Shown: positions 2,433 through 47,162 of the stretch, in pieces
Numbering within the stretch: position 1 is the stretch's first letter
Layout of the letters: every line of letters begins with the position of its first letter
NCBI RefSeq assembly: GCF_032884065.1
Contig: NC_088879.1
Span: forward strand, 15,536,647 to 15,600,646
Direction: 5' to 3'
DNA from: Artemia franciscana
Taxonomy: Eukaryota > Arthropoda > Branchiopoda > Anostraca > Artemiidae
DNA length: 64,000 nt
Notes under the pieces: model-generated
Database searches by the model: none
The model's input: the letters and a program-made list of their open reading frames with translations, nothing else
What the model was told of the DNA's origin: nothing
Position numbers and translations under genes: made by a program

Positions 2433-5400
2433 AAAATCTGTATTTTGGAATAAGCTCTTGGCTTAATTGTATCTTTATTTTGTTTGAAAACGTAACCCGA
2501 GCTTTCATTGGACTTAGAAATTCCATTTATTGTACAAGAATATTTAGATTGAGGATATGTTCCAGAAATCAATTAACATTAATTTTTATTCCTATACAAC
2601 ATATAACACAAAATTGCAGACAATTTGTGTTGCTATAAGTGCAGAGCAAGCTACACTATCAGCCCCCTTTATGTATTATGCGTGTTTTAGTGTATAAAAA
2701 TGTTGTTATATCCCATTGTAGGCCAAAGGTAATAACAAATAATTAATGATTGTTAATTATAATCGAGTTCAGGAACACATCCCAAGACTGAGATTAACCG
2801 CTCAATTTGCGTGGTGCTTCCGACACTTGACTTTATGGTAACATAAAATGTAAATACTGCCCTGTCAATATTAGTTCATTTAGTAGAAGTGTTTCGTTTG
2901 GGTTCTGGGAGCGGGTTTTTGCAATTTTATTTGACGCCACTAGAGTCAGATGTTTTTTTTTTATTTTTTTTTTATTTTTATTTTGGCTATATCTAAATAT
3001 CCTAATTCTTCTACATAAGAGTTGTTTTTTTTTGTCAAGCGAAAAGTGTTAGAAACTCTTAAAATCCATGGTCACCAGTATATGTCTCTGTAACCAAAGC
3101 TGTATATGGGGAAAGAGGGGAAGCATTTAGTGTAATCTGGAAAGTAAAAAGCGGTTGTGTACGCGTCACAGGGGTCGGAAATATGTGAAAGTGGTAAATT
3201 GAAAATAGGTTATTAAGATTCAAATATTTTTTCAGACCAACAGAAGAGTGGGGAAGGGGTAAAGTATGAAACAATCCGTTGATTAACATGAGAAATAGGT
3301 TTGGGGGTGTGATTACCCAGTCCCGCAGTCAGGGGCATCAATTGGGGCGGTGAAATCGTTGAGGTGAATTCACCCCCACCACCACCCTAGATGTTTTCCT
3401 GTTTTCCTCTTCCCAAATTTTGAAAAATCCTTGTTTTTGGAGTATTTTCATTGAAAAAAGCCATTTTGGTATTTCCATTCAAAAACAACAAAATTTTCAC
3501 CCCACCCTACATTTTTATGAATTGACTCCAATGCTTTAAGAAAAAAATAACTCAATTATAAAGAAATGATAACAGTACCTAACTGAATGTAATTTTTTTT
3601 AACGAATTCAATGACTTTGCATATAGAATTTTAATATTATACTATGATATGCTTAGAAGGAGATAAATAAATATATCCTATATTGTGATGATGATGGCAA
3701 AAAAACAACTGAGAATTTGGATAGGACCTTTATAGTCGAATAGAGATAACAATAACAAACTTACAAAAATTAAGCTCTCCTGTCTTATTAAGCTCGATCT
3801 TCGCCATACCCAACCTTAGAGGAAGTTTGCATTTTCTGAAAGCAAAATATAAGTTGGAAATATGTTGGCCTAGTTTCCGGAACACTGTAATTTTACTTAT
3901 TTGAAAAAAGAAGGAACTGTAAGATGAAGCTTAAAAACATAAAAGATTTGGTAATCCACGTATATTTGGCATACGAACATTTGTAGGGCGGGAATTCTTT
4001 TGGTTGTCTCAAGGTTTATTAGACCAAGCCGCAGCATGAATATTATAAAGTATGCAAAATTTGGCTAAGAAACGGGACACATCATTTTCCGCGGTTTGGG
4101 AACTTTCCCAAAGGGTTTAAGTAATAGCTCCAACAGGTTTTCTATATTCCAAATGTAATTCGCTAAATATTTGTAATTGCGCACGCGCGAAGGCGGAGTC
4201 ATGACGAAAAATGTGTAAGTGATGTGTCCTAAAAATCTTATTGATATTGGGAGTATAGGAATTTCAGCAAGCTGACTCTAGAATGCCAGTTGTGTGTCTT
4301 TCAGTGTGTTTCTGCGCAAACACCTCCTCTCTTTTCATTTGCTATTGTCTTTCATGCTATTTCTTTCATTCACTCTCAGTAGGTCGAAATAGACATATCG
4401 TGTATCTGAAACTTGACAAATAGACATGACGCAAGATGATTTTTATATTGTCGTTTAGTTTTAGTCTAGAGTGCTTTTATATTCGGAAAATAAATAGATC
4501 TCGTGTCTTGTTTTATATAAAATGTACTTTTTGTATTATACGGCGATCTCTGATTGACGAATTTTGTATTGTCTTGCCTTGAAAATAAACGCAGTTTTCA
4601 ATTTTCTTTCCTTCTTTTTATTGTGACAACTGTAGTTTTTGTCCCTTTTGAGCGGTTATCGTCTCACCAAAAAAAAATAAATGGCTTAACTCGCACTTTT
4701 CAAATATGGTTCAAAAGAGTGAAAAGAATTCTTCTACCGATTGCATTTGTTGACGCAAGTTCACTTCATAGGAGATGGAAACGGGAGGTCATAGCGTGGA
4801 CTAAAAAGTACTTCATAACCTTGAACCAAAATTTCAGCACAGTATACCAGAATGATGCCGAATTATTTAGCTACGTGGCATATTATTTTCTTATTCAAAT
4901 TCTGAGAAAAAAAAGTTTTTCTTCCAAAAGGCCTAAATTTGTTTCGCGCTCTCTTAATATCACGTTATGTCATCAATGGAAACAGAATTATTAAACTCTT
5001 CGACAATATTGACCAGAATGGCTATCTCAAAATTCTTATTTAATATCATAGGTGGTTACGGGGCGGGTGGCGAAAAAGTGCATGCGAAGACGGCTGATTG
5101 CCTTTCAATAACTTATAGCACTTGAAAGGGGCATTGAATTTCTAATTGATGACTTTCCTCAAGTTTCTACGGCCATCTCCAAACACTGGTGGCGGGAAAG
5201 AAAATAACTGAAAAGAACGCAATAAAGAGACATGACTCTTTACTATAGGCAACACAGGGAAGTTACAGAGACGTAAGAAAGAATTGCGGCAAAATCGTAG
5301 TTGATACCATAATTTCTTTTTCCAAGTCCAATCATTTTCTGAAGTAGTTCTGTGGGATCCTTGGTTTTCCCTAGAAGGTAAAAGCAATAAAACCAAAAAT

Positions 5401-5747
5401 ATGAAAAAACTATTAATAAGAAGATTTCTAGATATTGATGTATTTGGACTACTTTCTTGGTTATTCTTTAGAGAATTCAAAACACTCTTTTTGTTTGAAA
5501 AATTGAATGAAACATCATGACAGAAAAATTATGAGCCAGTTTCCAAATTTAGCGCCAAGTCATAGATTCAGATTCAGTTATTCAAAATTTCATATTCATC
5601 AAAATCTTCAACTTGCCCAAATGGAGAGACAAGCTCGACTACCGGACAAGACATATAAACGAAATTTAACAATCCTCATTGATACAGAACAAACAAAAAA
5701 TGAACCACTATTTCATCAATAAAAAAACAAAAAACAAAACAGTATCT
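2433..5747. other. Spacer of unit A, no gene recognised
   Basis: About 3.3 kb between the inserted element and the LINE ORF2 stop. It is repeated with high similarity at 18080-21383 and 33040-36344. It contains T- and A-homopolymers and a few short open frames. Frames at 4554-4994 (+) and 5142-5480 (-) do not behave like genes on comparison of the copies. Part of 5100-5747 may be LINE 3' untranslated sequence, because it lies directly downstream of the ORF2 stop on the minus strand. Confidence 0.6.
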
Positions 5748-8700
5748 TTAATCAGAGTATTTGATTTGGAGTAAGTGGAGTTGGGCCAAAATAAAATATA
5801 AAATAAAAAAATTGTACCAACCGTTCTTGCAAGCAGATTCCATTATATAACTTTTAAATCGTCTCTTGAAAGATCCTTTTGGTAACTCAACAAATTTATT
5901 TAATGAATTTTGTTGTCTATTGATGGGATCATATACCGGAGGTTGAAACGGGATCTTTCATTTTTCACCAGAGGTAGTTTGTACGGGTTGACACATCTAG
6001 TTATCAGTGAATTTTGATGTTTGGACAGTAAATTCTGGTCAAAAAAGAAATTATGTACATGTTGAATCTTAAAAAACCAAATAGATAATGGGAGATGAGA
6101 TTTCTGTGTAAGAGTCATTATGTCTAGAAACAGGTAAGAGGTACGTGTTTCAGAGTGGATATCTGTACTCCTCGGGTGTTGTAAAAACTTATCTAGAATT
6201 CGAATATCTTTGTTTTGCAGGGTTTAATATGTGATTTAAAAGTCAGCAAAAATACAGCTGAGCAATATTGGAGGTGTGCATCAATTAGGCAAAAATATAG
6301 GATTCTTAGAACCTTATATGAGAATAAAAATATTTTGCTGTGTATACTCTTTTGATTTCATGAATAGTATCAACGGTAATTTTATTCAGAGAAATATTTT
6401 TCAACTTTTGACTTGATCTTCCATAAATAATAAATTCTGTTTTAACAAAATTAGGGACAAGTTTGTTAATTTGGAACCAATTTGTGATGGATTTTGCAAC
6501 TTCAATCAGTTTTTCTTTCAGTGCATCTAATGTTGGTGCTTTAAAACTTGCTGCAGTATCATCCGCAAACGTAATTGTTAATGCATTTTCAGGAGTAGAT
6601 TTAGGGAGATCATTTATATATATTAAAAATAATAGAGGTCCTAAAATTGAACCTTGCGGTACACCGATATTATTATCCGATGTCTCAGATGAATATTCAC
6701 CATCAATATCTACCACAAACCTTCGATTGTGCAAATATGATTTGATTAATTTTAAAGGTGCTCCTCTTATTCCCGTATTTTCAAGTTTTTTAAATAGAAT
6801 TTCGTGATTTAAAGTGTCGAAAGCTTTCTTAATATCAAAAAACAGTGCAGCTGCTAAACAATCATCATCTAAAGCATCATTAATGAAAATATGTGTTGCG
6901 GTACGGCATCTTCTGTCGATCTATCTTTTAAAAAACCAAACTGGAACTTCAAAAAAAAATTATCTTTTCCAGAAATGATGCAAGTCTATACTTCATTATT
7001 TTTTCTATAACTTTAGCCAGTGGGGAAAGGAGTGCAATAGGACGGTAATTATTGGAATCTTGAGCCTCACCTTTTTTAAACATAGGGATTATTTTAGCCT
7101 TTTTCAGAAGATCAGGGAAGACACCATTTTTTATGCTCGTATTTATAACATGTGCAAGAGGTGCATATATTACTCCTGATATTTTCTTTAAAAGATTTGT
7201 CGATATATCATCTACTGAAGCCGAATTTCCACTCTTTAAATCACTAATAGCTTTTTGGAATTCATCAAATGATACTGGTAGCATATACAATGACCTATCT
7301 TCATTTTGGGGGAAAAATCGTGTATAATCTGATGACTCATCCAAAAGATCTCTAACCAATTCTTCACCAATTTCACTTAAATGCTTAGCAAATAATTCTG
7401 CGATATCCTTTTTTTCAGTTGTATCATTAGCGTCATTTCCGTTATTAAGAAAAGTCTGTATTGCTCTTGGTTTATTTTTATTTGATTTATCACACAAGAT
7501 TTCCCACATTTTCTGCTGGGACGCAGCTGAAGATATTTCCTTCTCATAATAATTTCTTTCACTTTCTCTCAAAGTTATAGTCAGAGTATTTTTGTACAAT
7601 TTGAATTTCTGGATGTTTTCATCAGACGGATAGTTGCATTTAATTTTGTATACTCTATTTTTTTCATTAATACATTTTAACAGTCTCGGGGATATCCATG
7701 CTTTTTGTGACATTGACTTGGGTGCTTTCCTTTTAACTTTCGAACATATATCATTATAAACATCATTAAATGATTTATAAAACATTTCCAATGCCTTATT
7801 TGCATCCTCAGTACTGACTACTTCTTCCGATCTATATCTCCTAGCTTAATAATTAAACGCGCAATTGATTCATCATTTATTATACGACCTGTTTTTTCAT
7901 TACGTTTATTTTTTTTAGATATGGCCAAATTAAATTCAGAAATTATCAAACCGTGATCTGAAATATCGTTTAATATGACAACAGTTGAAAAACAAGTACT
8001 ATTAGAAAAAATATTAAAATTAATGTTGCTCCATTACCATCTATTCGAGTTGGAATCAGACATGATGGGAGCAGTCCTTGACAAAGCATTAGTTCTAAAA
8101 ATTCTTTTATCTTCGAATCATTTTGCTTTGATTCAATTTTCATTAGGTCTAGGTTGAAATCACCAAAAATAAATATTTGCTTATTCATTTGTGATATTTT
8201 ATTTAATAGAATTTCAAATTGCATCAAAAGTTGATCTATGCTTCCGGAAGGTGGGCGATATAAAGATATCATAATTGTTGATTTTTTATTAACTTCACAT
8301 TCCAGAATACACGTTTCAAAAATCATTTCTATATTCCAAATCATTAGGTCTCGTCTTATTTTCGATTTTAACTCTTTTCTTATGATAAATCCCAATCCAC
8401 CATGCTGATGGTGTTTTCTACTCTCATCAACAAAATCATAATACAAAAAACATTACATCGTTAATATTCCTATCATTTAAGAAAGTTTCATTTACCGCTA
8501 AAGCTTTAATTTTATTTTTATTAATTATGTCATTTATGAGCTCAATGCTACTAAGTAAACATCTGCAGTTAAAACAAGAAAAACGTACATTACTGCATGT
8601 GGGGATAGAATCATCCATAAATGAATATTTGTTTTTGGGGCTATCTTCCAAAATTTCTGCTTCATCATCCTTCACATCCCTCATGCATTCCAGTATATCA

Positions 8701-8768
8701 AAAGGATTTTCCTCTAACTGTTTAGTTCTGCTTGCAAGATCAGGTAAATTATGTAAACTCAATATCAT
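5748..8768 (-). pseudogene. LINE ORF2 (endonuclease-reverse transcriptase), broken, copy A
   Basis: Read on the minus strand from ATG at 8768. The N-terminal part contains AP-endonuclease features: FSCFNCR, AVNETFLND, GDFNLDL. The reverse-transcriptase part shows NNYRPIALLSPLAKVIEKI, then GVPQGSILGPLLFLIYIND and the catalytic FADD at 6558-6569. The C-terminal tail (FNLRYMIPSI, then LPKGSFKRRFKSYIMES) runs to TAA at 5748-5750. The frame is disrupted several times: near 8440, near 7800-7970, near 6905-6950, and by a deletion of roughly 90 bp near 6340 that is absent in copies B and C. It should be unable to make active enzyme. Identification as LINE ORF2 is secure; the clade is tentative. Confidence 0.88.
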
Positions 8769-9162
8769 AAATCAACAAAAAGCCTAACTCCAGTTAATCA
8801 ACAATTTAACGAAAGATGACTCAAAAAAGAAAACTAATCTAAGCACATATAACAACCGCATACGTCGAAGAATTCCATTGTGTTTCGGTGGAAGTATGTT
8901 CATTCTTTCTCATTCGACAGAGAACACGCACATTTTGGCACCAATGTGCGCACCCCAACACATATTTGCGCATTTATATAATGACTATTATGAACAAATC
9001 CTAACAAATCACTAAAAATGACAAAAAAAAACAAATAAGAAAAATAACACAATTTATTCGACTGGTGGGACGTTATACCACTTCTTTTTTTGTTTCACTC
9101 CGTCTTGGTCTATGTAGCATAATGTGGGTGGTACCGTGGGTGGGATCCATGCAACAAAACCT

Positions 9163-9855
9163 TTATCCTTCCTTTCTTTCTTTTTTCTGATTCAGCGTAG
9201 CGCGAATTTCCCTGCAGGTTTTACTAACATCATCACTGAAGAAAACTCCATTGTAATCAAATTTTGTCGCTTTATCAAGGTCTTTTTTCCAGAGCTGGTC
9301 ACGTAAATGTTTATTCCCTTGAAGTACCGAGAATTTGTCATCCGAGTTCATGAGTCGTATTTTCACAAATTTATCATGTACTTCTTTAACTTCCAAATTA
9401 ATTTTTAGTTGTAAGAAGTTTTCCAGCAAATGTTCCATTTTCGTCGAGGCCTCCGGCACCGAGGCAGCCTTTAAATTCCAAGCAATAATGTTGTCTTTCT
9501 TTTCCAAATTCTCCAATATGAGGACCTTATCAGTGAGAGGGCCTAATCCATGGGTTTCTTTCTTTCGTATATCTTTTAATTCTGCCTGAATCTCTATTAT
9601 TGTATCCGAGTGGGTCGCAGTTATGATTTCAATATCATTCACTTTGGAGGTTAGACCACTAATGTCTGAACGGATTTCGGATAATTCAGATCTCAAACTT
9701 TGTATCTCTTCCAGCGTTGCTTTAACTGTTTCTAAAATGCGATGGACTGAACTGGTCAGCGTATCAATCAAATCACGTATTGTCCCTTGGGCTGTTGAAT
9801 CTTGCATAGATAATCGTGTGGATTCCATATCATTACGTCTCTTTTTCTTGGTCAT
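9163..9855 (-). pseudogene. LINE ORF1 (coiled-coil RNA-binding type), C-terminally frameshifted, copy A
   Basis: ATG at 9855, 230 codons. The N-terminus is basic (KKKRRND). About residues 25-105 are a heptad-rich coiled coil (RSELSEIRSDISGLTSKVND). The second half (NIIAWNLKAASVPEAS, then DKFVKIRLMNSDDKFSVL, then FFSDDVSKTCREIRATL) resembles the RRM-like plus C-terminal domains of L1-type ORF1 proteins, which bind element RNA. Copy B continues past this stop for about 50 codons (GFVAWIPPTLCYID), so the end of copy A is a frameshift after the RATLNQKK segment. It lies just upstream of ORF2 on the same strand. Confidence 0.8.
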
Positions 9856-10066
9856 AATAACTATTCACAGGTGTTCACAAGATTAGCATAAAATAAGTCA
9901 AAATGCGCGCTCTCCGATACTGAGATGTTAACTCGAGGAAAGTATTGAATGAACTGACGCATCAGATGGAAAATTCAAATTTGAGAAATTGAAAACTTGT
10001 TTCTCATTATAGTCACTAAATAGTCATAATCTTCCAAACAAAAAAGAAAATTAAACTGCCTGACCC

Positions 10067-10916
10067 CTACCGACAGCTTGATTTCACGTAATCTTCAGGA
10101 TCAACTCGATTTTGAGCCATCCTATTGTCTAGCCTCTCTTTATTGTGGTCTAAAAGGCCAGTGTGGTGGTAGAAACTTCGGTTTCATTGAATCAATAAAA
10201 TGCTTTCTCCAAAGTATTTCCAGGCTTAATAAACCCTCAGGTTTCTGTACATAGCAGCTTACAACTTTACGGTCACGCGGTTCTTTGCTAACCGATTGTG
10301 TTCCGATCTTTAAAGCTTCTTCAAGTACTTCGCTAGTCAACAAACTGACATTGTAATACTCAGTAATTATCGCTTCAAGTTCAGCAAGCCTGTCGAATGG
10401 AACTTTATCTTTAGCGGATTTGATGGTTCTTGCCGCTGATACAACTTTCTTCAATAAAGGATTGGTTGCTTTGACCTTGTCTATGGCCCCAATTGGAGCT
10501 CTACATTCCTCAGCTAGTCGTTTACGAAGCTCCTGATCGCAATTATTACTGATTTTATGACATGTGACACATAACGGAAGAACGTCGTGAGACTGATAGC
10601 TTTTCAGGGTATTACGATATTCTTTCGGGACAATATTTTTTCTCACGCAGGATTCTGTTTGACCACATACAACACAGCAGATTTTTTGAGGTGTCTGATA
10701 ATATTTATCACATACTCCAACAGGTCGCCAGTTTGGTTCTGACTTCAGTCGAATCGTAAAAGGGTCTTCCTTCACCTGTTCTGCAACGTCTTTACTAAGG
10801 TACCAGTCAGCATTTTTGCGACCAAGGGTGGGCAAAATTTCACCATCTGGTGCCACTAAGTAGCAAGTTGAATAATTTCTATCTTCCTTCATTTCTATCT
10901 TCCAATCAATCTTAAC
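10067..10916 (-). pseudogene. EXD2: EXD2-derived C-terminal fragment (HNH-like module), copy A
   Basis: About 280 codons on the minus strand match, from memory of the family, the C-terminal region of EXD2 (exonuclease 3'-5' domain-containing 2, a DNA-end-processing nuclease). Landmarks in order: CYLVAPDGEIL; WYLSKDVAEQV; CVVCGQTES (CxxC); VRKNIVPKEYR; SHDVLPLCVTCHKIS (HNH/zinc-type); ECRAPIGA; EEALKIGTQS; KHFIDSMKPKFLPP. The DEDDy exonuclease domain expected upstream is absent: the frame runs into the 295-bp-repeat element at about 10916. One extra T near 10153 shifts the frame after FLPPHW. Copy B keeps SLDHNKERLDNRMAQNR, and the corresponding stop is at 10067-10069. It is a retained gene fragment rather than a functional nuclease gene. 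Confidence 0.83.
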
Positions 10917-12240
10917 CTGGGGGGAAGGAGTGGGGGGGGCGGTTAATTCGGAAAAATAGAAAAAATGAAGTATTTTTAACATACGAACGGTTGATCAGAT
11001 CTTAATAAAATTTGATGTTTGGAAGTATATCGTGTCTCAGAGCTCTTGTTTTAAATCCCGACCCGATCTGGTTATATTGGGGGGGGGGAGTTGGGAGGGG
11101 GAAACCTAAAGTCTTGGAAAACACTTAGAGCGGAAGGATCGGGATGAAACTTGGTGGGAAAAATAAGCACAAATTCTAGATACATGATTGACATAAGCGG
11201 AACGGATCCGCTCTCTTTGGGGTAGTTGGGGGGTGAAGGGCTAATTCTGAAAAATTTGTAAAAATGAGGTATTTCTAACTTACAAACTGGTGATCGGATC
11301 TCAACGAAATTTAATATTTAGAAGGATATCATGTCTCAAAGCTCTTATGTCAAATCCTGACCAGATCTGGTGACATTGGGGGAGGTTGGAGGGGGGGGGG
11401 GAGACCTAAAATTATGGAAAACGCTTAGAGTGGAGGGATCGGGATGAAACTTGGTAGGATAAATAATCAGAAGTCTTAGATACGTGATTGAAATAATTGG
11501 AACGAATCCGCTTTATTTGGGGGAATTGGGGGGGGGATTAATTCTGAAAAATTAGAAAAAATGACGTATTTTTATCGTACGAAAGAGTGATCGGATCTTC
11601 ATGAAACTTCATATTTAGAAGTACCTCGTAACTCAGATCTCTTGTTTTTAATATCAACCGGATTCAGCGTCATTGGGGGGGGGGATCTTAGAAAATACTT
11701 AAAGCGGAGAGATCAGGATGAAACTGGATGGGAAGAATAAAACAAGTCTAAGATACATGACTGACATAACTGGACCGGATCCGCTCTATTTGGCGGAGTT
11801 GGGGGAGGGGGGGGGTAATTCGGAAAAATGAGGTATTTGTAACTTAGGAACGGGTGATCAGATCTTTATGAAATTTGATATTTAGAAGGATCTTGTGCTT
11901 TAAAGCTCTTATTTTAAATTCCGAGCAGATCCTATGACATTGGGGGGAGCTGAAGGGGGAAACCGGAATTCTTGGAAAACGTGAAAATTGGGGTATTTTT
12001 ATCTTACGAATAAGTGATCGGATCTTAATGAAACTTGATATATCGAACGATCTTATGTCTCAGATGCTCGATTTTTGACTCGAATTGGATCCGAAGACAT
12101 AGGGGAGGGAAACAAAAATCTTGGAAAACGCTTAGAGTGGAGAGATCGGGATGAAACTTGATGGGAAGATTAAGCACAAATTCTAGATACGTGATTGACA
12201 TAATTGGAACGGATCCGTTCTCTATGGATAAGGTCATCAA
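10917..12240 (-). mobile_element. 295-bp-repeat dispersed element, copy 2 (truncated)
   Basis: Minus-strand relative of 453-2432, with G-runs in place of C-runs and the same phrases in reverse complement (GGGATGAAACTTGG, GATCGGATCTTAATGAAA). It begins abruptly at the EXD2 fragment and lacks the GACAGACC end, so the right-hand end of the element is missing. The other end is lost beside the Helitron near 12240. Confidence 0.75.
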
Positions 12241-13268: not shown

Positions 13269-14528
13269 GTGCCATCTAATTTTTAAGCAGCCCATGGCCT
13301 GGTGTATCAAAGATTATGTAAGGGTCAAATTTATTGCAAAGTCCCGTTTTTGGATAGGGACGAAGTGACCTGTTTGAGCTTAAAGATGTATAATTATTTT
13401 ACGTAATTTCTTCATTCTTAATTCACAATCATTTCGATCGAGGGTATAAATTTAAAAGTAAAGGCGGAAAAAGATCCGGTGTCCCAATTGAACATGTTTT
13501 CCCGCCATCAAATTTTGAGTTGGTGAAGTGTAAACTTTAAAATCGCGTGCTCAAAATCAGTGGTCTCGATTCATGAAAATTAGGGGAGAGGAATATTCTT
13601 TTTTTTCAAAAACCATGAGAATTTTCCCTATTTTTTCAATGAAAATTTGAAAACAAACGTTAAAAAAAAAAAAAAAAAATAACCAAGAAAATGTTCAAAA
13701 TCTAGGTGGAGAACACCCCCCCCCCCCGCAACTAACACCACAGCTTAAAAATGGCCATTTTTTTTATGTAATTAAAAATAAGGTTATGTACCTATTACGA
13801 GTAAGCTACCATTTCACTCACCACCAAAGGCGTATCGTGGATTTTTTTTGGGGGGAGGAGGGTAACACAAAAAACCTCAATAAGACGTATAAATTTTGTT
13901 TACATGCATTTATGTTACGTTTTTATGAGTTGGAGAAAAATTCAGGAAGGGGGGGTTCAAACTCCGGTACTCCTCCTTCCTTCCCTGGGTATGGCCTTGT
14001 CACCTATTATATTATTGGCGTTATTGTTATTATTAGTTGTTGATGAATAGGGCTGCCGGTAGATTGCTTACTAAAATTGTCTACTTTGGGGTAATTATAA
14101 GTTAGATGGTGATACTATTTTCATAAATGTCTACCTAGTTAGTGTACTTTAAAACTGTACATGCTTCTTGAACTTTAGTATAAGCAAAATTATCTTAATT
14201 ATTAAAAATAAAACTATATTTGTAGGGACTGGTAACTCGTACATTGCCTCCTTTTTTTATTTGAATTACGTTTAATGTCTCAGTGATTATTTTATTTCAA
14301 ATGCAATGAGAACTTAAACAATTACTACTAGTTGACAACAGTCTATTGATTTAACCTTTTACAGACTGTATATTAATCGTGCTTCCGTTTAATTGGGCTT
14401 AATTATGTCACTCGATTTTATAGTTTTTTTTTAATGTTGTTGTATATGCTTTATATGATGTTGTGATTTTGATACTTGTGTCTATTTACCAATATTGAGC
14501 GGCTTCGTTGCTTTATGGTTATCAATGT
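13269..14528. other. Spacer, no gene recognised
   Basis: AT-rich sequence with A- and C-homopolymers (13660-13730), matched at 58745-59999 and missing from unit B. The short open frames are not preserved between the two copies. Confidence 0.6.
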
Positions 14529-14857
14529 CTGGTAATTTTCAATCTTGATTCAACAGTTTTTTGTCTGGTAATTTTAAATCGTGATCCAACAGTCTTTTGT
14601 CTGGTAATATTAAATCGTGATCCAACAGTCTTTGGTCTGGTAATTTTAAATCGTGATCCAACAGTCTTTTGTCTGGTAATTTTAAATTATGATCCAACGG
14701 TCTTTTGTCTGGTAATTTTAAATTGTGATCCAACAGTCTTTTGTCTGGTAATTTTAAATCGTGATCCAACAGTCTTTTGTCTGATAATTTTAAATCGTGA
14801 TCCAAAAGTATTTTGTCTGGTAATTTTAAATCACAATCCAACAGTCTTTTACCTGGT
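14529..14857 (+). repeat. 36-bp minisatellite, unit A
   Basis: Nine to ten tandem copies of a 36-bp unit containing GGTAATTTTAAATCGTGATC and CAACAGTCTTTTGT. Because 36 is divisible by 3, both strands stay open and give artificial 12-residue repeats (VFCLVILNRDPT forward; LLDHDLKLPDKR reverse). Related arrays lie at 29667-29790 and 60000-60350 with different copy numbers. Confidence 0.93.
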
Positions 14858-14904
14858 AATTTTGGCTGGATAAAGTTCCAGTTGGGAATTAGTTGATTTT
14901 TATA

Positions 14905-15010
14905 ATTTGGGATCAAATTATTACCAAATTATAATTGGTAAATTATTACCAAATTATAATTAATTATTACCAAATTATTATCAAATTATAAATTGGGATC
15001 AGTTTGGGAT
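14905..15010. repeat. AT-rich TTACCAAATTATAAT repeats
   Basis: Short degenerate repeats of ATTACCAAATTATAATT, partly self-complementary, directly after the minisatellite. They recur at about 29836-29945 and 60415-60515. Confidence 0.75.
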
Positions 15011-16309
15011 AATTACCACTAAACTAGCTTCCATCGATCCATCAATAAGTGGCTGCACTACAAGAACAAATTATGTTAGAATCATTTGCTTAAAGTCGGA
15101 ACAGAACGAAGAGACCAAGTCAAATAAGTGGTCTGAAAAATCTTCACAGGAATTTGAATCAATGCCTTTTGATTTTGGATACCGCATAAGACTTGAAAAC
15201 GTTTATATTTGAAGGCAAAATTTCCTTAGCGGGTTTTAAGTTTTGCAAATACATCTCAGCAAAAATTATAAAAATTATTAAAATACAATTAATTTGTGTG
15301 ATTTTATGTTTTGTTTTTTTGTTTGCTGTAAACGCAACCTTTCATCAAGCTGCGGTATCACAATTATCACAATCCAAGATTTATTTGTGCCAAAAATTGG
15401 CTTTGTTAAAAGTAAAAATAATTCCGAAATGTAGATTCATTCTAAATTTCCCCAAAAATAGAAATATAAAGCTTTTCAAACATCGCATTTTGTCTTTCAA
15501 CTAAGGTTCATCAGTGCAAAAAAAAAATAGAATAAAAAAAAATCTGCTGCTATCAGATTTTTCTTTTTTTTTAACTGTACAGCAGTGAAAGAAGTGAAGA
15601 TAAAGGTTCTCCCTGTGCAAAACATGTTAACTAGGATTATCCTGCTCATTACATGGCGATTGGGTGTCCATTTACAAACAATTTTCAAGATTTAGAGAAT
15701 AGACACATATATTTAAGAATGTGATAGAAAAACCCAAAATAAAAGGAAAATAGTGAAGACAAAGGTTCTCCCCTAGGTTTAAACCGCGATAAGTTAAATA
15801 ATAATAAATCAATAATGAACAAGTAATCTATCGCGATAAAAACTTTATTTTCTGCTTTTTAAAATCTAAATTCTGAGACTGTTACTCAGAATCATTTGAT
15901 CTGAGGTTATCAGCTATTACGTTTCATACATTGTTCTTTGTGTGCATTGCTTATTTTTTGAAATGCAACAGTGACGGTTCTGGCCTCTTTTGCACCCGGG
16001 GCAAAATCTTGGTTAGCGTCCCCTCCTCCTGTCTCCCACAAAATTTTTGGGACAAACTCTAAAAAAATTTGCGTTTTTTAAAACAATTATTTTCAGTTTA
16101 TTGTTAACAAAAAATTTATTTTTAATTGTTTTATTATTAATAATTATTTTAATTATTACAATTTGATTACTTTTTAATTTATTTTTATTTTATTGATATA
16201 GTAATTATTTTTATTTATTAACGACACCCTCTACTTTAGTTTCAATAAAAATAAAATTACTAAAGAAATTACAAAATTTACAAAAATTTCTAAAGAAAAT
16301 CCAAACATA
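15011..16309. other. Spacer, no gene recognised
   Basis: AT-rich sequence shared with 29946-31250 and 60516-61760. A 103-codon frame at 15193-15504 is frameshifted in both sister copies, so it is not treated as a gene. Confidence 0.6.
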
Positions 16310-17367
16310 CGAGGGTTGTTTTTAAAGTAAGGTCCGTTTGAACAGAAGTACAGAACAAAAGATTATTTCAAAATAGTAAATTTATTTTCAGAGAGAGCAC
16401 ACTTCACTCTATTCAACAGCATGGTTGCCAGGTTTGTTCAGACACTTATCCTACCTCTCAACTAATTTTAAAGTAACCTCTGTTAAAAACTTGTTGTCAG
16501 CTCTGGTAATCCAAAATTCACTGCCATTTTTACGTCGACGTCATCATTGTAACGGTTGCCACTTAGGTGTTGCTTGAGGTCACAGCTAAGATACCAATAC
16601 AGTTGTTAAAACTCGATCTATTTTTGGGACACAGTGCGCAGTAGCGATGCTAGCGGCTGGAGACAAGAAACTGGCTGTCTGAATCTAAAAGTCGGAGCAA
16701 TTCACAGCTTAGATACCAATACAAAACAAAATTGCGTTCCCGCCTATGGTGTTATAGTACGATCTACTCGTCGGAGCACGGGCTTGGAGGAGGCGCCAAG
16801 TTCAGAGCTCTCTACCAACAGCTTCTCATGGGCAAGGTAGGAGTTTTCATAACTGTATTGGTATCTAAGCTGTGCTTGAGGTGTAGAAACGGATGGTAAT
16901 CGCTTGGCGCATGATCAGGACTGTTGGGTGAAGGGCCTAAAAATTCTCTGCCAAAACTGTCCAACGAATAGCAGGTTTAACCTGCAGCGTGAGGTCATGC
17001 ACTGTCATGAAGAAGGACAATTCCCTTTTTTCAGGATGCTACGTGTTTTCTATTCCATGTTCTGTTGCCTTGATTTGGGTGTGATATCTCCAGTTCAACC
17101 GGTTGCCACCTCAGTAAGAACCATTATGATGATGACGATGATGTAAAAACGGCAGTGAACCTATGGTTATCGGTGCTGGTGGTAAATTTTTATGAAAAGG
17201 TTACTTTAAATTAGTTGAGAAGAATAATAAGTGTTTGAACAAGCTTGTCAACTATGCCATTAAATAGGGTAAAGTATGTACTTTATTAAAATAAATTCAC
17301 TTTTTTAAAAATTATCTTTCGTTGTTTAGTTGTATTCAATCGGACCTTACTTTAAAAACACGCCTCG
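16310..17367 (-). mobile_element. Decayed mariner-like element, unit A
   Basis: The ends are inverted (CGAGGGTTGTTTTTAAAGTA at the left; reverse complement of TACTTTAAAAACACGCCTCG at the right) and flanked by TA at 16308-16309 and 17368-17369, the mariner/Tc1 target signature. On the minus strand, fragments of mariner transposase remain in different frames: LLHD-A-PHAAG near 16985-17015 and SPNSPDHAPSDYHPFLHLKHS near 16875-16945, corresponding to the HDNARPH and SPDLAPSDYHLF regions around the second and third catalytic aspartates. Stops and frameshifts make it inactive. Confidence 0.8.
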
Positions 17368-18079
17368 TATAAAAAATAAGCTTCTAAAATGGAGGCAATG
17401 GGCCTTTGACCCTCGATCTTGAAAGGTCCACCCAAGGTTGTATCTAGGAGGTGGCTCTGACTCTTAAAAACAAAATGAAAATGAATATAAAGGAAATTTC
17501 GATGCGTTTTTAAGTTTTTTTGCAAAAAACGAAAAAATACCCCTCCCTCGAACAAAAATTAGGGATGTGCCCTTGGATCCACCCCACAACACTTTAGGCT
17601 GTCAAAAAAACAAAGGTATTGCCTCAAATGAGTAGTTTTCATTTGCATACACAAAAAATTGTATTTAATAAATTAAAATTATTTCTATGTGCTCTAAGCT
17701 TTCGACAAAGTTTCGTCAGAAGAAATTAAATGAAACAAAACCTTAGCGAAACTTGACACAAACAATAAGGGAATATATTTCGTGTTTGCCTTGATATATC
17801 CTTAGAATTATGATGTGCAAGGCCATATCCAGGGGGATGGGCTTTGACCTTCCCCCCACGAAATTTTTGTCCGACTTGTAAAAACAATAAAATTGTCTAA
17901 AACCACATTTTTGATACACTTCAAAGTTTTTTCGTCCCCCTCCCCTCGAATAACAATCCTGGACAAGGCCTTGATTATCTATAAAAAAAATATTTTGGCG
18001 TTATATGAACTAGCAGGGTTCAACTAAGGACAAAAGAAGTTAAAATAAATAAATAAAAGCAGTTGAAATAAATATATAA
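17368..18079. other. Spacer across the A/B unit junction, no gene recognised
   Basis: AT-rich spacer from the mariner to the start of the next unit's main spacer. It holds the unit start at 17629. No gene, and no insertion equivalent to 453-2432. Confidence 0.55.
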
Positions 18080-21000
18080 AAAATCTGTATTTTGGAATAA
18101 GCCCTTGGCTTAATTGTATCTTTATTTTGTTTGAAAACGTAACCCGAGCTTTCATGGGGCTTTGAAATTCCATTTATTGTACAAGAATATTTAGATTGAG
18201 GATATGTTCCAGAAATCAATTAACATTAATTTTTATTCCTATACAACATATAACACAAAATTGCAGACAATTTGTGTTGCTATAAGTGCAGAGCAAGCTA
18301 CACTATCAGCCCCCTTTATGTATTATGCGTGTTTTAGTGTCTAAAATTGTTGTTATATCCCATTGTAGGCCAAAGGTAATAACAAATAATTAATGATTGT
18401 TAATTATAATCGAGTTCAGGAACACATCCCAAGACTGAGATTAACCGCTCAATTTGCGTGGTGCTTCCGACACTTGACTTTATGGTAACATAAAATGTAA
18501 ATACTGCCCTGTCAATATTAGTGCATTTAGTAGAAGTGTTTCGTTTGGGTTCTGGGAGCGGGTTTTCGCAATTTTATTTGACGGCACTAGAGTCAGATGT
18601 TTTTTTTTATTTTTTTTTTTTTTTTTTTTGGCTGTGTCTAAATATCCTGATTCTTCTACATAAGAGTTGTTTTTTTTTTTTCAAGGAAAAGTATTAGAAA
18701 CTCTTAAAATCCATGGTCGCCAGTATATGTCTCTCTAACCAAAGCAGTATAAGGGAAAAGAGGGGAAGTATTTAGTAAAATCTGGAAAGTAAAAAGCGGT
18801 TGTGTACGCGTATACAGGGGTCGGAAATATGTGAAAGTGGTAAATTGAAAATAGGTTATTAAGATTCAAATATTTTTTCAGACCAACAGAAGAGTGGGGA
18901 AGGGGTAAAGTATGAAACAATCCGTTGATTAACATGAGAAATAGGTTTGGGGGTGTGATTACCCAGTCCCGCAGTCAGGGGCATCAATTGGGGCGGTGAA
19001 ATCGTTGAGGTGAATTCACCCCCACCACCACCCTAGATGTTTTCCTGTTTTCCTCTTCCCAAATTTTGAAAAATCCTTGTTTTTGGAGTATTTTCATTGA
19101 AAAACGCCATTTTGGTATTTCCATTTAAAAGCAACAAAATTTTCACCCCACCCTACATTTTTATGAATTGACTCCAATGCTTTAAGAAAAAAATAACTCA
19201 ATTATAAAGAAATGATAACAGTACCTAACTGAGTGTAATCTTTTTAACGAATTCAGTGACTTTGCATATAGAATTTTAATATTATGCTATGATATACTTA
19301 GAAGGAGATAAATAAATATATTCTATATTGTGATGATGATGGCAAAAAAAACTGAGAATTTGGATAGGAACTTTATAGTCGAATAGAGATAACAATAACA
19401 AACTTACAAAAATTAAGCTCTCCTGTCTTATTGAGCTCGATCTTCGCCATAACTTACCTTAGAGGAAGTTTGCATTTTCTGAAAGCAATATATAAGTTGG
19501 AAATATGTTGGCCTAGTTTCCGGAACACTGTAATTTTACTTATTTGAAAAAAAAGGAACTGTAAGATGAAGCTTAAAAACATTTAAGATTTGGTAATCTA
19601 CATACAAACATTTGTAGGGCGGGAATTCTTTTGGTTGTCTCAAGGTTTATTAGACCAAGCCCAGCATGCAGCATGAATATTATAAAGTATTCAAAATTTG
19701 GCTAAGAAATGGGACACATCAATTTGCGCGGGTTGGGAAGTTTCCCAAAGCGTCTAAGTAATAGCTTCAACATGTTTTCTATATTCCAAATGTAATTCGC
19801 TAGAAATTTGTAATTGCGCACGCGCGAAGGCAGAATCATGACGAAAAATGTGTAAGTGATGTGTCCTAAAAATCTTATTGTTATCGAGAGTATAGGAATT
19901 TCAGCAAGCTGACTCTAGAATGCCAGTTCTGTGTCTTTCAGTGTGTTTCTGCGCAAACACCTCCTCTCTTTTTATTTGCTATTGTCTTTCATGCTATTTC
20001 TTTCATTCACTCTCAGTAGGTCGAAATAGACATATCGTGTATCTGAAACTTGACAAATAGACATGAAGCAAGATGATTTTTATATTGTCGTTGAGTTTTA
20101 GTCTAGAGTGCTTTTATATTCGGAAAATAATTAGATCTCGTGTCTTGTTTTATATAAAATGTACTTTTTGTATTATACGGCGATCTCTGATTGACGAATT
20201 TTGTATTGTCTTGCCTTGAAAATAAACGCAGTTTTCAATTTTCTTTCCTTCTTTTTATTGTGACAACTGTAGTTTTTGTCCCTTTTGAGCGGTTATCGTC
20301 TCACCAAAAAAATTAAATGGCTTAACTCGCACTTTTCAAATATGGTTCAAAAGAGTGAAAAGAAATCTTCTACCGATTGCATTTGTTGACGCAAGTTCAC
20401 TTCATAGGAGCTGGAAACGGGAGGTCATAGCGTGGACTAAAAAGCACTTCATAACCTTGAACCAAAATTTCAGCACAGTATACCAGAATGATGCCGTATT
20501 ATTTAGCTACGTGGCATATTATTTTCTTATTCAAATTCTCAAAAAAAAGTTTTTCTTCTGAAAGGCCTAAATTTTGTTTCACGCTCTCTTAATATCACAT
20601 TACGTCATCAATGGAAACAGAATTACTAAACTCTTCGACAATTTTGACCAAAATGGCTATCTCAAAATTCTTATTTAATATCATATGTGGTTACGGGGCG
20701 GGTGGCAAAAAAGCGCATGCGAGGACGGCTGATTGCCTTTCAATAACTTCTAGCACTTGAAAGAGGCATTGAATTTCTAATTGATGACTTTCCTCAAGTT
20801 TCTACGGCCATCTCCACACACTGGTGGCGGGAAAGAAAATAACTGAAAAGGACGCAATAAAGACACATGACTCTTTACTATAGGCAACACAGGGGCGTTA
20901 CAGAGACGTAAGAAAGAATTGCGGCAAAATCGTAGTTGATGCCATAATTTCTTTTTCCTAGTCCAATCATTTTCTGAAGTAGTTCTGTGGGATCCTTGGT

Positions 21001-21383
21001 TTTTCCTAGAAGGTAAAAGCAATAAAACCAAAAATATGACAAAACTATTAATAAGAACATTTCTAGATATTGATGTATTTGGACTTCTTTCTTGGTTATT
21101 CTTTAGAGAATTCAAAACGCTCTTTTGGTTTGAAAAATTGAATGAAACATCATGACAGAAAAATTATGAGCCTGTTTCCAAATTCAGCGCCAAGTCACAG
21201 ATTCAGCTTCATTTATTCAAAATTTCATATTCATCAAAATCTTCAACTTGCTCAAATGGAGAGACAAGCTCGACTACTGGACAAGACATATAAACAAAAT
21301 TTAACAATCCTCATTGATACAGAACAAACAAAAAATGAACCACTATTTCATCAATAAAAAAAAACAACAAAAAAACAGTATGT
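18080..21383. other. Spacer of unit B, no gene recognised
   Basis: Second copy of 2433-5747, differing by substitutions, small indels and homopolymer lengths. Nothing gene-like survives comparison with the other copies. Confidence 0.6.
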
Positions 21384-21699
21384 TTAATCAGAGTATTTGA
21401 GGTGGAGTAAGCGGAGTTGGGCCAAAATAAAATATAGAATAACAAAATTGTACCAACCGTTCTTGCAAGGAGATTCCATTATATAACTTTTAAATCGTCT
21501 CTTGAAAGATCCTTTTGGTAACTCAACAAATTTATTTAATGATTTTTGTTGTGTATTGATGGGATCATATACCGGAGGTTGAAACGGGATCTTTCATTTT
21601 TCACCAGAGGTAGTTTGTACGGGTTAACACATATAGTTATCAGTGAATTTTGATGTTTGGACAGTAAATTCTGGTTAAAAAAGAAATTATGTACATGTT

Positions 21700-22945
21700 C
21701 AAGGAGGCACACTCGTGCCTCTATAAAGAGGCGAACCACGACAATGTTAAGCGATCTTCGGTTCCAGTGGTCGCAGAGGGATGCATTTCGTAGCCCGAGC
21801 TCCAACTAAGAAACCTGCCAAATTTCATCCCCCTCCAACTTTTCCTTCATGGGGAAAATCTGGCCGAAAGTTTCGACCCGTCAACCCCAGCCCCCTTTAA
21901 CGTTGTCCGATCGGGCTGAAATTCACAAGTTAAGGTCCCCTAGGGCCCAGGAGCTTATCCGCGAAATTTCAGCTCGATCCGATAACTCCTTCCCTGTTTT
22001 CCAGAAACCACGCATAGCCACTTAAAGTTCATGTTCTTTTTTTTCCTCGACGCCTACAGGTCACAGCCGACATCGGATCTGGGTGTACGAAGACTCATTC
22101 GATGCGGAATTCTCCGAGTAAGTGCCCTTGAAAGTTTCGTAGGAAAATCTTAACCCCCCGAAAGTTTCGACCCCCCAACTCCATCCCACCCCTTTAACGT
22201 TGTCCGATCGGGCTGAAATTCACAAGCTTATCCGCGAAATTTCAGCTCGATCCTGTTTTCCAGAAACCACGCATTAGCTACTTAATTAACCCATTTCAAG
22301 GAGGCACACTCGTGCCTCTATAAAGAGGCGAACCACGACAATGTTAAGCGATCTTCGGTTCCAGTGGTCGCAGAGGGATGGGGAGGGATGCATTTCGTAG
22401 CCCGAGCTCCAACTAAGAAACCTGCAAAATTTCATCCCCCTCCAACGTTTTCTTCATGGGGAAAATCTGGCCGAAAGTTTCGACCTGTCAACCCAAGCCC
22501 CCCTTTAACGTTGTCCGATCGGGCTGAAATTCACAAGTTAAGGTCCCCTAGGGCCCAGGAGCTTATCCGCGAATTTTCAGCTTGATCCGATAACTCCTTC
22601 CCTGTTTTCCAGAAACCACGCATAGCCACTTAAAATTCATTTACTTTTTTTTCCTAGACGCCTACAGGTCACATCCGACATCGGATCTGGGTGTACGAAG
22701 ACTCATTCGATGCAGAATTCTCCGAGTAAGTGCCCATGAAAGTTTCGTAGGAAAATCTTAACCCCCCGAAAGTTTCGACCCTCCAACCCCCCCCCCCCCC
22801 CCCCCCACCCCTTTTAACGTTGTCCGATCGGGCTGAAATTCACAAGTTAAGGTCCCCTACGGCCCAGGAGCTTATCCGCGAAATTTCAGCTTGATCCGAT
22901 AACTCCTTCCCTGTTTTCCAGAAACCACCCATTAGCTATTTAATT
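21700..22945 (+). repeat. Two tandem copies of a ~0.6-kb repeat
   Basis: CAAGGAGGCACACTCGTGCC begins at 21700 and again at 22297. A hairpin GCCTCT-ATAA-AGAGGC follows each start. Both copies contain CCGATCGGGCTGAAATTCAC and end with CCAGAAACCACGCAT-type text. The second copy has an extra internal partial repeat with a C-homopolymer near 22787-22806. Confidence 0.85.
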
Positions 22946-23023
22946 AACGGATTTCTCTCCATAAGAGCCCATGTTAATTTGAAATTTTTAAAAGCTATTG
23001 AGAAGTTATATTTACACACATGC

Positions 23024-23096
23024 AAGTTATTAGCTCAGTTGGTAGAGCGTGAGACTTTTAATCCTCGGGTCAAGGGTTCAAGTCCCTTACGGGCGG
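23024..23096 (+). tRNA. tRNA-Lys(UUU)-like sequence 1, degenerate
   Basis: It has a clear A box (TAGCTCAGTTGG) and B box (GGTTCAAGTCC), anticodon loop CTTTTAA, a 4-bp D stem (GCTC/GAGC) and a 5-bp T stem (AAGGG/CCCTT), followed by eight Ts, a Pol III terminator. The 5' acceptor strand (AAGTTAT) does not pair with the 3' strand (ACGGGCG), and the anticodon stem is mismatched. It is more likely a tRNA pseudogene or SINE head than a working tRNA. Confidence 0.55.
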
Positions 23097-23269
23097 TTTT
23101 TTTTCACAACATCAAAAAAATTTTGATAAGACCTGGACAGCTTATCATTTGAGAGATAACAGAATATTAGCTTCTTATGAGCAAAAGAAACATTTCGGTC
23201 ATTCTATCTATTTTTTTCTATTTTATACAATGATTTAAAAGCGGGGGGGAGGGGGGGGGGGGTTCCTCT

Positions 23270-23318
23270 CCTAATTCCTGTACGAGGAGTACTCCTGTAC
23301 GAGGAGTACAGGAATTAT
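23270..23318. repeat. Palindromic GTACGAGGAGTAC hairpin
   Basis: AATTCCTGTAC and its complement GTACAGGAATT flank GAGGAGTACTCCT-type text. The equivalent at about 24163-24192 is the simpler 11-bp stem with loop GAGGA. It lies between the tRNA-like sequence and the foldback in each sub-unit. Confidence 0.75.
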
Positions 23319-23358
23319 TAAATTACATCCACCATGGATTGTAGAAAAACGTAGAGAA

Positions 23359-23827
23359 ATAATATGAAAAAAACTTCGTTTTCTTAAAGAGTTAAAGAGG
23401 CTGCGTCCCAAAGTCGAACCTTAAAACGTACAGGAATTAGAAGAGGCAGTTGGGGGGCTGCCGCCCCCCAAACCCCCAGCTTTTAAAGACTCTTTTGTAC
23501 AGGTTTTTTGTTTTTTTGCTAACCCCCCGCTCTTGGCTTCGGAAAGGCCCTCTTTTAATTAACAAAAAACTGAAATGAATGAATAATGGAATAACTTCGA
23601 AAAATGTTAAACACAAGAGGACAGGAGAACCATTGCGCCGAAACTAGTAATTAGTAACAATGAAGTCCCCCCACAAAAAAAACCTGTCCAAAAGAGTCTT
23701 TAAAAGCTGGGGGTTTGGGGGGCGGCAGCCCCCCAACTGCCTCTTCTAATTCCTGTACGTTTTAAGGTTCGACTTTGGGACGCAGCCTCTTTAACTCTTT
23801 AAGAAAACGAAGTTTTTTTCATATTAT
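23359..23827. mobile_element. Foldback element 1
   Basis: Starts ATAATATGAAAAAAACTTCG and ends with its exact complement. Arms of about 150 bp (23359-23512 and 23674-23827) are almost perfectly complementary; I see one internal mismatch near the inner end. Each arm contains GGGGGGCTGCCGCCCCCC, itself a hairpin. The roughly 160-bp centre has no frame. It resembles a foldback-type or MITE-like element without transposase. Confidence 0.8.
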
Positions 23828-23894
23828 CTCCATAAGAGCCCATGTTAATTTGAAATTTTTAAAACTTATTTAAAAGTTATATTTACACACATGC

Positions 23895-23967
23895 AAGTGG
23901 TTAGCTCAGTCGGTAGAGCGTGGGACTTTTAATCCTCGGGTCAAGGGTTCAAGTCCCTTACGGGCAG
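23895..23967 (+). tRNA. tRNA-Lys(UUU)-like sequence 2, degenerate
   Basis: Second copy, with TAGCTCAGTCGG (A box), GGTTCAAGTCC (B box) and CTTTTAA anticodon loop. The anticodon stem (TGGGA/TCCTC) pairs better than in copy 1. The acceptor stem again fails to pair (AAGTGGT against ACGGGCA). Eight Ts follow at 23968-23975. Confidence 0.55.
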
Positions 23968-24233
23968 TTTTTTTTCACAAGATCAAAATAAAAGTGTATA
24001 ATTTTGATAACACCTGGACAGCTTATCATTTGAGAGATAACAGAATATTAGCTTCTTATGAGCAAAAGAAACATTTCGGTCATTCTATCTATTTTTTTTT
24101 CTATTTTATACAATGATTTAAAAGCGGGGGGTTGGGGGGCGGCAGCCACCCAACTTCCTCTCCTAATTCCTGTACGAGGAGTACAGGAATTATTAAATTA
24201 CATCCACCATGGATTGTAGAAAAACGTACAGAA

Positions 24234-24730
24234 ATAATATGAAAAAAACTTCGTTTTCTTAAAGAGTTAAAGAGGCTGCGTCCCAAAGTCGAACCTTAAA
24301 ACGTACAGGAATTAGGAGAGGCAGTTGGGGGGCTGCCGCCCCCCAAACCACCCGCTTTTAAAGACTCTTTTGTACAGGTTTTTTGTTGTGGGGGGCTGCC
24401 GCCCCCCTAACCTTACCGAACCGAACCGAAGCTCTTTGCTTCGGAAAGGCCCTCTTTTAATTAACAAAAAATTGAAATGAATGAATAATGGAATAACTTC
24501 GAAAAATGTTAAACACAAGAGGATAGGAGAACCATTGCACCGAAACTAGTAATTAGTAACAATGAAGTACCCCCACAACAAAAAACCTGTACAAAAGAGT
24601 CTTTAAAAGCGGGGGGTTTAGGGGGCGGCAGCCCCGCAACTGCCTCTCCTAATTCCTGTACGTTTTAAGGTTCGACTTTGGGACGCAGCCTCTTTAACTC
24701 TTTAAGAAAACGAAGTTTTTTTCATATTAT
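24234..24730. mobile_element. Foldback element 2
   Basis: Second foldback with the same terminal sequences (ATAATATGAAAAAAACTTCG and complement, ending 24730). Its outer arm matches foldback 1; the inner part differs, with an extra GGGGGGCTGCCGCCCCCC and ACCGAACCGAACCGAAG. Its right end is the right end of the whole insertion. Confidence 0.8.
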
Positions 24731-27716: not shown

Positions 27717-28556
27717 CTAACAAATCACTAAAAATGACAAAAAAAACAAATAAGAAAAATAACACAATTTATTCGACTGGTGGGATGTTATACAACTTTT
27801 TTTTTGTTTCACCCCGTCTTGGTCTATGTAGCATAATGTGGGTGGGATCCATGCAACAAAACCTTTATCCTTCATTTCTTTCTTTTTTTGATTCAGCGTA
27901 GCGCGAATCTCCCTGCAGGTCTTACTAACATCATCACTGAAGAAAACTCCTTTGTAATCAAATTTTGTCGCTTTATCAAGGTATTTTTTCCAAAGCTGGT
28001 CAGGTAAATGTTTATTCGCTTGAAGTACCGAGAATTGGTCATCCGAGTTCATGAGTCGTATTTTCACAAATTTATCATGTACTTCTTTAACTTCCAAATT
28101 AATTTTTAGTTGTAAGAAGTTTTCCAGCAAATGTTCCATTTTCGTCGAGGCCTCCGGCACCGAGGCAGCCTTTAAATTCCAAGCAATAATGTTGTCTTTC
28201 TTTTCCAAATTCTCCAATATGAGGACCTTATCAGTGAGAGGGCCTAATCCATGGGTTTCTTTCTTTCGTATATCTTTTAATTCTGCCTGAATCTCTATTA
28301 TTGTATCCGAGTGGGTCGCAGTTATGATTTCAATATCATTCACTTTGGAGGTTAGACCACTAATGTCTGAACGGATTTCGGATAATTCAGATCTCAAACT
28401 TTGTATCTCTTCCCGCGTTGCTTTAACTGTTTCTAAAATCTGATGGACTGAACTGGTCAGCGTATCAATCAAATCACGTATTGTCCCTTGGGCTGTTGAA
28501 TCTTGCATAGATAATCGTGTGGATTCCATATCATTACGTCTCTTTTTCCTGTTCAT
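27717..28556 (-). CDS. LINE ORF1, intact frame, copy B
   Basis: 279 codons without a stop, from ATG at 28556. It has a basic N-terminus (NRKKRRND), a coiled coil at about residues 25-105, an RRM-like segment (NIIAWNLKAASVPEAS, DKFVKIRLMNSDDQFSVLQ) and a C-terminal domain (FFSDDVSKTCREIRATL), then GFVAWIPPTLCYIDQDG and a hydrophobic LCYFSYLFFLSFLV tail. The last 20 or so residues may simply be read-through into untranslated sequence. It is the least damaged ORF1 of the three. The partner ORF2 is broken, so the copy is not autonomous. Expected role: RNA binding and ribonucleoprotein formation for retrotransposition. Confidence 0.75.
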   Translation of the reverse strand: MNRKKRRNDMESTRLSMQDSTAQGTIRDLIDTLTSSVHQILETVKATREEIQSLRSELSEIRSDISGLTSKVNDIEIITATHSDTIIEIQAELKDIRKKETHGLGPLTDKVLILENLEKKDNIIAWNLKAASVPEASTKMEHLLENFLQLKINLEVKEVHDKFVKIRLMNSDDQFSVLQANKHLPDQLWKKYLDKATKFDYKGVFFSDDVSKTCREIRATLNQKKKEMKDKGFVAWIPPTLCYIDQDGVKQKKSCITSHQSNKLCYFSYLFFLSFLVIC

Positions 28557-28767
28557 AATAACTATTCACAGGTGTTCACAAGATTAGCATAAAATAAGTC
28601 AAAATGCGCGCTCTCCGATACTGAGATGTTAACTCGAGGAGAGCATTGAATGAACTGACACATCAGAAGGAAAATTCAAATTTGAGAAACTGAAAACTTG
28701 TTTCTCATTATAGTCACTAAATAGTCATAATCTTCCAAACAAAAAAGAAAATTAAACTGCCTGACCC

Positions 28768-29665: not shown

Positions 29666-29666
29666 A

Positions 29667-29790: not shown

Positions 29791-29835
29791 TTTTGGCTGG
29801 ATAAAGTTCCAGTTGGGAATTAGTTGATTTTTATA

Positions 29836-40508: not shown

Positions 40509-40530
40509 AATAACTATTCACCGGTGTTCA

Positions 40531-47079: not shown

Positions 47080-47097
47080 ATATATATATATATATAC

Positions 47098-47162
<65 letters not shown>

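Follow-up and report, generated by a model that had tools for sequence, protein, structure and literature searches.

EXD2-derived segments in the window

The window analysed here is a 64 kb stretch of contig C17 (C17:15536647-15600646) in a genome of 1.27 Gb and 6,468 contigs, and contains three minus-strand, intron-less segments corresponding to the C-terminal half of EXD2. Their coordinates were set by aligning the window to the spliced EXD2 gene of contig C10 described below. Tail copy A (10053-10874, C10 CDS 922-1756) has a frameshift near the C-terminus, which is also that of tail copy C (40954-41771, CDS 923-1756), where an in-frame TGA is found as well; tail copy B (28754-29620, CDS 873-1756) is interrupted by an in-frame TGA and a TAA.

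The three segments had been identified as EXD2 C-terminal regions in a first-pass annotation of the sequence, and both the alignment to the C10 gene and the translated search proposed there show that they are real. With a human EXD2 sequence as the tblastn query, three strong matches were obtained over residues approximately 348-615, namely 29592-28810 (copy B, E = 5.6e-61), 41763-41059 (copy C, E = 5.0e-55) and 10874-10158 (copy A, E = 5.3e-54), with scores of 191-212 bits against 26.2 bits for the best of 20 shuffled queries. The assignment does not depend on this human query alone, since the full-length EXD2 encoded on contig C7 of the same genome has matches to the human EXD2 exonuclease structure 6k17, to the Pfam family PF01612 and to the tails; the identity of its C-terminal half to A, B and C is 60, 61 and 62%, respectively. 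The exonuclease domain, reported as missing from the fragments, is indeed so: the next-best place in the window scores 23.9 bits in tblastn, no match to this domain stands out in the 64 kb, and the DEDDy 3'-5' exonuclease domain (PF01612) found in the C7 protein is absent from the window tails. As to the HNH-like zinc fold of the C-terminal half, no Pfam family was matched by the three tails, a PDB search with the tail alone as query gave nothing below E 0.8, and the AlphaFold model of the tail protein encoded near 15973 kb of C17 had a mean pLDDT of 35, too low for use. A search for a relative in viral contigs returned 11 pattern matches, 0 of which were confirmed.

The motifs quoted in the first-pass annotation are present in the tails, with SHDVLPLCVTCHKIS in copy A at the position where B and C have SHDVLLLCVTCHKIS. 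The stretch between the similar GATAGAAAT/GATAGGAAT words sets A and C apart from B, and the 5' end of B is also unlike that of A and C; these differences are read as later local changes. A 36-bp minisatellite (29592-29794, minus strand) adjoins the 5' end of copy B, in frame with the tail and translated as 12-residue repeats, and further arrays of it are found at 14526-14863 and 59994-60366 (9.4 and 10.4 copies).

Tandem segmental duplication

Comparison of the window with itself revealed units of approximately 15 kb, in which the tail, a LINE and their flanks form colinear blocks that are mostly 94-97% identical. Unit A lies upstream of unit B and extends to about 10916, unit B spans 14729-29570, unit C spans 29662-41811, and the start of the next unit is found at 60233-64000, its tail being outside the window at C17:15607 kb. 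Units B and C are offset by 14,933 bp, as illustrated by the block 14729-21699 aligned with 29662-36661 (7,024 columns, 96.5% identity). The series extends past the window (about 15602-15608 and 15624-15634 kb), so that at least five units lie in a row on C17, in addition to an inverted pair close to the near-full-length copies discussed below. These long colinear repeats of high identity, non-coding flanks included, identify the arrangement as tandem segmental duplication. The later insertions differ from unit to unit, which argues against an assembly artefact.

Other repeats and elements were noted in the window. A repeat of approximately 295 bp with C-runs (661-2337, 10931-12228 and 42713-44014) extends up to the 5' boundary of copy A and is found again close to other units. 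A region judged by eye to be Helitron-like (48732-53277, plus strand, and 54244-55746, minus strand) begins with 69-bp/138-bp coding repeats, and comprises a 1068-codon frame, a frame with a Pif1 2B domain (PF21530) and an inverted partial second copy. A 419-codon frame at 45958-47217 (minus strand) resembles, by eye, a Penelope-type reverse transcriptase, is accompanied by a TA repeat and has no Pfam match.

The parent gene and the missing introns

The EXD2 gene of C10 (about C10:33103115-33147786) has nine coding exons, all eight internal donors being GT and all eight acceptors AG, and its spliced frame is open until a stop at codon 597, for a product of 596 amino acids. The window tails start inside exon 5, and the C10 gene divides the tail region among five exons. 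In copies A, B and C no intron interrupts any of the junctions crossed (CDS 992, 1195, 1338 and 1514), the net difference in length being −13 to −17 nt for each copy, and the copies are thus not genomic pieces of this gene. The exon-boundary comparison with a parental gene, suggested with the initial identification, therefore excludes that the segments are exons of a single normal EXD2 gene, which had been named as one of the findings that would overturn it. It also divides the proposal that a piece of a host gene had been amplified: the derivation from EXD2 stands, while the source was an intron-less retrocopy rather than a genomic piece of the gene. Precise absence of the parental introns, with the intron-bearing parent elsewhere in the genome, is a feature of processed pseudogenes.

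Intron-less EXD2 copies elsewhere in the genome

At E ≤ 0.001, 24 genome matches were obtained with copy A as the query and 57 with C7 EXD2, scores being given to the best candidates only. About 0.4 Mb from the window, C17 contains two near-full-length intron-less copies with stops, at 15992-15994 kb and 15997-16000 kb, which retain the exonuclease domain and cross seven of the eight C10 junctions and 6+2 of the eight, respectively, without introns. The presence of these relatives and the intron-less state of the tails indicate that the latter are truncated offspring of a retrocopy.

The fragments are repeated, as had been noticed, and beyond the window as well: there are seven tail-only copies on C17, namely A, B, C and those at 15607, 15634, 15973 (plus strand) and 15976 kb (minus strand). 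Stops or frameshifts are found in A, B, C, 15607 and 15634. The 15973 and 15976 copies form an inverted pair with one coding difference in the tail; their frames are unbroken over 370 and 365 codons (355 counted from the first Met to the stop), and contain an additional upstream copy of the segment preceding the zinc-type region.

On C7, a full-length intron-less frame of 588 unbroken codons (C7:51369078-51370838, minus strand) encodes an EXD2 whose exonuclease domain matches 6k17 with E 1.8e-33 and PF01612 with E 5.3e-21. The unbroken frame suggests a putative living retrogene. A second partial copy lies nearby (C7:51372268-51372582). On C20 (27456-27462 kb), the unit of a 911-bp tandem satellite contains an intron-less fragment of the exonuclease domain (CDS 124-610), and closely similar fragments are found at C20:27.81 Mb, C20:27.97 Mb and C6:2.33 Mb. 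The C6 fragment (C6:2331 kb) is placed between TA repeats, near what appears by eye to be the end of a Helitron/Pif1-type helicase-like frame and near a 27-bp minisatellite resembling those found at 12.4 and 58 kb of the window; a DNA element may have captured a piece of EXD2 at this locus.

In the tree of the exonuclease part, the C7 pair and the C20/C6/C21 group each stand apart (support 100 for both) and the two C17 copies are placed together (support 66). At least two EXD2 retropositions are likely, with the count blurred by later DNA duplications. In the tail tree all tail-only copies group with the 15992 copy, apart from that at 15997-16000 kb (support 100); a tree restricted to the initial part of the tail, which carries no support values, instead places the latter copy (15999) with B and C. 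The 15997-16000 kb copy is thus a mosaic, the first and second parts of its tail yielding different trees, and the conflict implies that the C17 copies were mixed by gene conversion or recombination. In the literature searched, no paper on EXD2 retrogenes or retrocopies was found, and among the matches listed for broader queries none concerned EXD2 copies, judging by its entry.

Selection and decay

Coding constraint was evaluated against a null model in which base changes of the observed types are redistributed randomly over the codons concerned. Changes are counted singly, each in the context of the majority codon, so that stop counts are approximate. For A, B and C, 39 of 59 changes are nonsynonymous (42.4 expected, P = 0.19) and four are stop-making (2.3 expected); adding 15634 gives 48 of 74 (53.1 expected, P = 0.11) and five (2.9 expected). 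For the six tails A, B, C, 15634, 15607 and 15973 the values are 71 of 102 (74.4 ± 4.4 expected, P = 0.25) and four stop-making changes (3.6 expected). No constraint on the tail-only copies is therefore detected by this substitution-matched test, and loss of coding constraint is a further property of processed pseudogenes. Of the 21 tail-only pairs, 18 have a dN/dS of 0.27-0.83 and two, based on 8-9 changes, have one of 1.9-2.2; for the remaining pair the ratio is undefined. Values below 1 count against decay, but the substitution-matched test does not separate them from neutrality, and the constraint hinted at by an earlier pairwise estimate (0.42-0.66) was not upheld.

The exonuclease halves of the near-full-length C17 copies show one stop-making change where 5.0 are expected (P = 0.036) and 78 nonsynonymous changes of 116 (85.2 expected, P = 0.07); the retrocopy may therefore have been functional for some time, which does not fit a simple account in which it was dead from the outset. 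Between C7 and C10, 85 of 151 changes in the exonuclease half are nonsynonymous (109.8 expected; 0 of 5000 permutations as low), with no stop-making change (5.8 expected), and 84 of 133 in the tail (98.0 expected, P = 0.004). This comparison shows constraint in both halves, as a property of the pair that is not divisible between the two lineages here.

These results bear on the proposal that the tails are the last exons of working, tandem-duplicated EXD2 genes. The order of the EXD2 segments is retained, and copy A can be read without a stop through 284 codons before its late frameshift. The 64 kb, however, lack an exonuclease-domain match, five of the seven tail-only copies are broken by stops or frameshifts with constraint undetected, and the C10 gene spreads the tail region over five exons. 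Functional tandem EXD2 genes are rejected on account of the absent exonuclease match, the broken frames and the undetected constraint, and the proposal retains a very low probability.

A different status has to be considered for the inverted pair at 15973 and 15976 kb. Its unbroken 355-codon frames count against an explanation by decay of a retrocopy, and, together with the duplicated segment that precedes the zinc-type region, would fit a young working EXD2-like gene without exonuclease, the window copies being its dead relatives. The two frames, however, are one coding change apart in the tail and so count as one observation. In the set formed by 15973, 15634 and 15992, two stop-making changes are found (2.9 expected) and 51 of 74 changes are nonsynonymous (53.8 expected); with counts so near expectation an intact frame by chance is unsurprising, and the young-gene interpretation is considered improbable. 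In its more elaborate form, retroposition, partial internal duplication and recombination would have built at 15973/15976 a gene for a 355-residue exonuclease-less EXD2-like protein that may act as partner or antagonist of EXD2, with the intact C7 EXD2 keeping the full enzyme, a scenario to which we also assign a low probability.

The LINE beside the tails

In unit A a non-LTR element (5565-9957, minus strand) is inserted in the EXD2 3'UTR. Its first frame (9163-9864) is considered ORF1 by position only, and is followed by an endonuclease-domain frame (7970-8452) and a reverse-transcriptase region (6306-7845). Pfam matches were found to PF14529 (endonuclease) downstream of copy A and to PF00078 (reverse transcriptase) downstream of copy B; the 6952-7845 frame of unit A and the ORF1 frame of unit B had no Pfam match, and the ORF1 frame of unit A had one, under the cut-off. 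The same insertion is present in unit B (21200-28658, minus strand), where it is split by an insertion of approximately 3 kb (about 21694-24730), and in unit C (36162-40858, minus strand), with an insertion of approximately 236 bp at about 40530-40766. The 3 kb insertion of unit B contains two tRNA-like matches to Rfam RF00005 (23030-23089 and 23900-23961, plus strand), not called by ARAGORN and located in direct repeats spaced by about 870 bp.

On the 5' side of the LINE in unit A, a remnant of the EXD2 3'UTR (9958-10052, minus strand) is recognized by the match of 10053-9993 to C10:33147784-33147845. Beyond the LINE the 3'UTR resumes (5134-5564, minus strand, homologous to C10:33147910-33148118 and to C17:15996573-15996976), the former match being that of window positions 5534-5334. 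A gap of 65 bp separates the two 3'UTR blocks in C10; in the window the LINE lies between them. The 5' junction of the LINE is shared by all seven tail-only copies, with up to two mismatches allowed. TGTG precedes it on the 5' side in five of the seven (B, 15607, 15634, 15973 and 15976; TGCG in A and C) and is found 3' of it at five of the six junctions found (TATG in A). In the 15992 kb copy the two 3'UTR sides that flank the LINE are joined directly, with a single TGTG, and this is the empty site. The 4-bp target-site duplication and the empty site of the relative indicate that the LINE landed in the 3'UTR of the retrocopy. A complication is that internal pieces of the same LINE lie further downstream of the 15992 copy, so that this neighbourhood has been rearranged.

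Acquisition of the EXD2 tail by the LINE through 5' transduction, followed by its spread, would account for the adjacency of tail and LINE in seven of seven tail-only copies. With window 10140-9700 as the query, 42 matches were obtained with the best 40 of 77 candidates scored, and eight fell in the C17 cluster; all 34 listed outside it start at query positions 179-188, the LINE 5' end corresponding to query 184 (window 9957), and none of these 34 includes the EXD2 part. Together with the resumption of the 3'UTR past the LINE, the target-site duplication and the empty site, this speaks against transduction, which is rejected on the strength of the empty site and of the LINE copies listed elsewhere; hardly any likelihood is left to it. 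The amplification of the fragment with mobile DNA, as first proposed, is not borne out either: the LINE, a dispersed element in its own right, has inserted in the 3'UTR, and the copies were multiplied as tandem units of approximately 15 kb.

Proposed history of the locus

The window tails are thus very likely leftovers of a dead intron-less retrocopy, multiplied by DNA duplication, with the LINE inserted beside them and not acting as their carrier. An EXD2 mRNA would have been reverse-transcribed and inserted on C17, producing an intron-less copy that was duplicated there. The intron-less C17 relatives and the intron-bearing C10 gene are observed, and from there we infer the reverse-transcription step and its direction. 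A shortened derivative, of which the surviving sequence shows the C-terminal half and the 3'UTR only, would then have received a common LINE in the 3'UTR, as the target-site duplication and the empty site demonstrate, and the resulting block would have been multiplied by tandem DNA duplications of approximately 15 kb, which are evident from the shared sequence, the order of the events being presumptive. The window copies most likely do nothing and are decaying, without detectable selection.

A gene fragment beside a LINE can pass for cargo of the LINE. Here the empty site and the target-site duplication, along with the copies of the LINE found elsewhere, settle the question. In this non-model genome a nuclease gene has been copied intron-less repeatedly, one copy being apparently alive (C7) and one fragment having been absorbed into a satellite array (C20).

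Comparison with known systems

Intron-less copies of other genes exist in this genome, as deduced from control searches with three families. PGK gave three single-frame matches covering 1-379 of 379 positions with no stop or intron (C16:11810237-11811427, C157:91726-92916 and C19:8583016-8584206), Cpn60/TCP1 gave one match, which has two stops (1-292 of 490), and PGI matches covered at most 136 of 486 positions. EXD2 is therefore not alone in having been retrocopied, three control families being too few to rank it.

With respect to EXD2 itself, the tails share homology over the C-terminal half with the EXD2 of this genome and with human EXD2, but the window tails lack the exonuclease domain and their frames are broken. 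The contiguity of host-gene sequence and LINE recalls LINE 5' transduction or LINE-mRNA chimeras; in contrast with these, the target-site duplication of the LINE sits inside the host-derived 3'UTR, and the LINE copies listed elsewhere lack the host sequence. The likeness to processed pseudogenes and retrogenes, which arise by LINE-mediated retrocopying of mRNA, lies in the loss of introns from copies placed on contigs other than that of the intron-bearing gene, most of these copies being broken and one full-length and intact (C7). Differences are that neither a poly(A) tract nor a target-site duplication attributable to the EXD2 retroposition was recognized in the 3' stretches inspected, and that the copies in the window arose secondarily, by DNA duplication of a retrocopy, rather than as separate retropositions.
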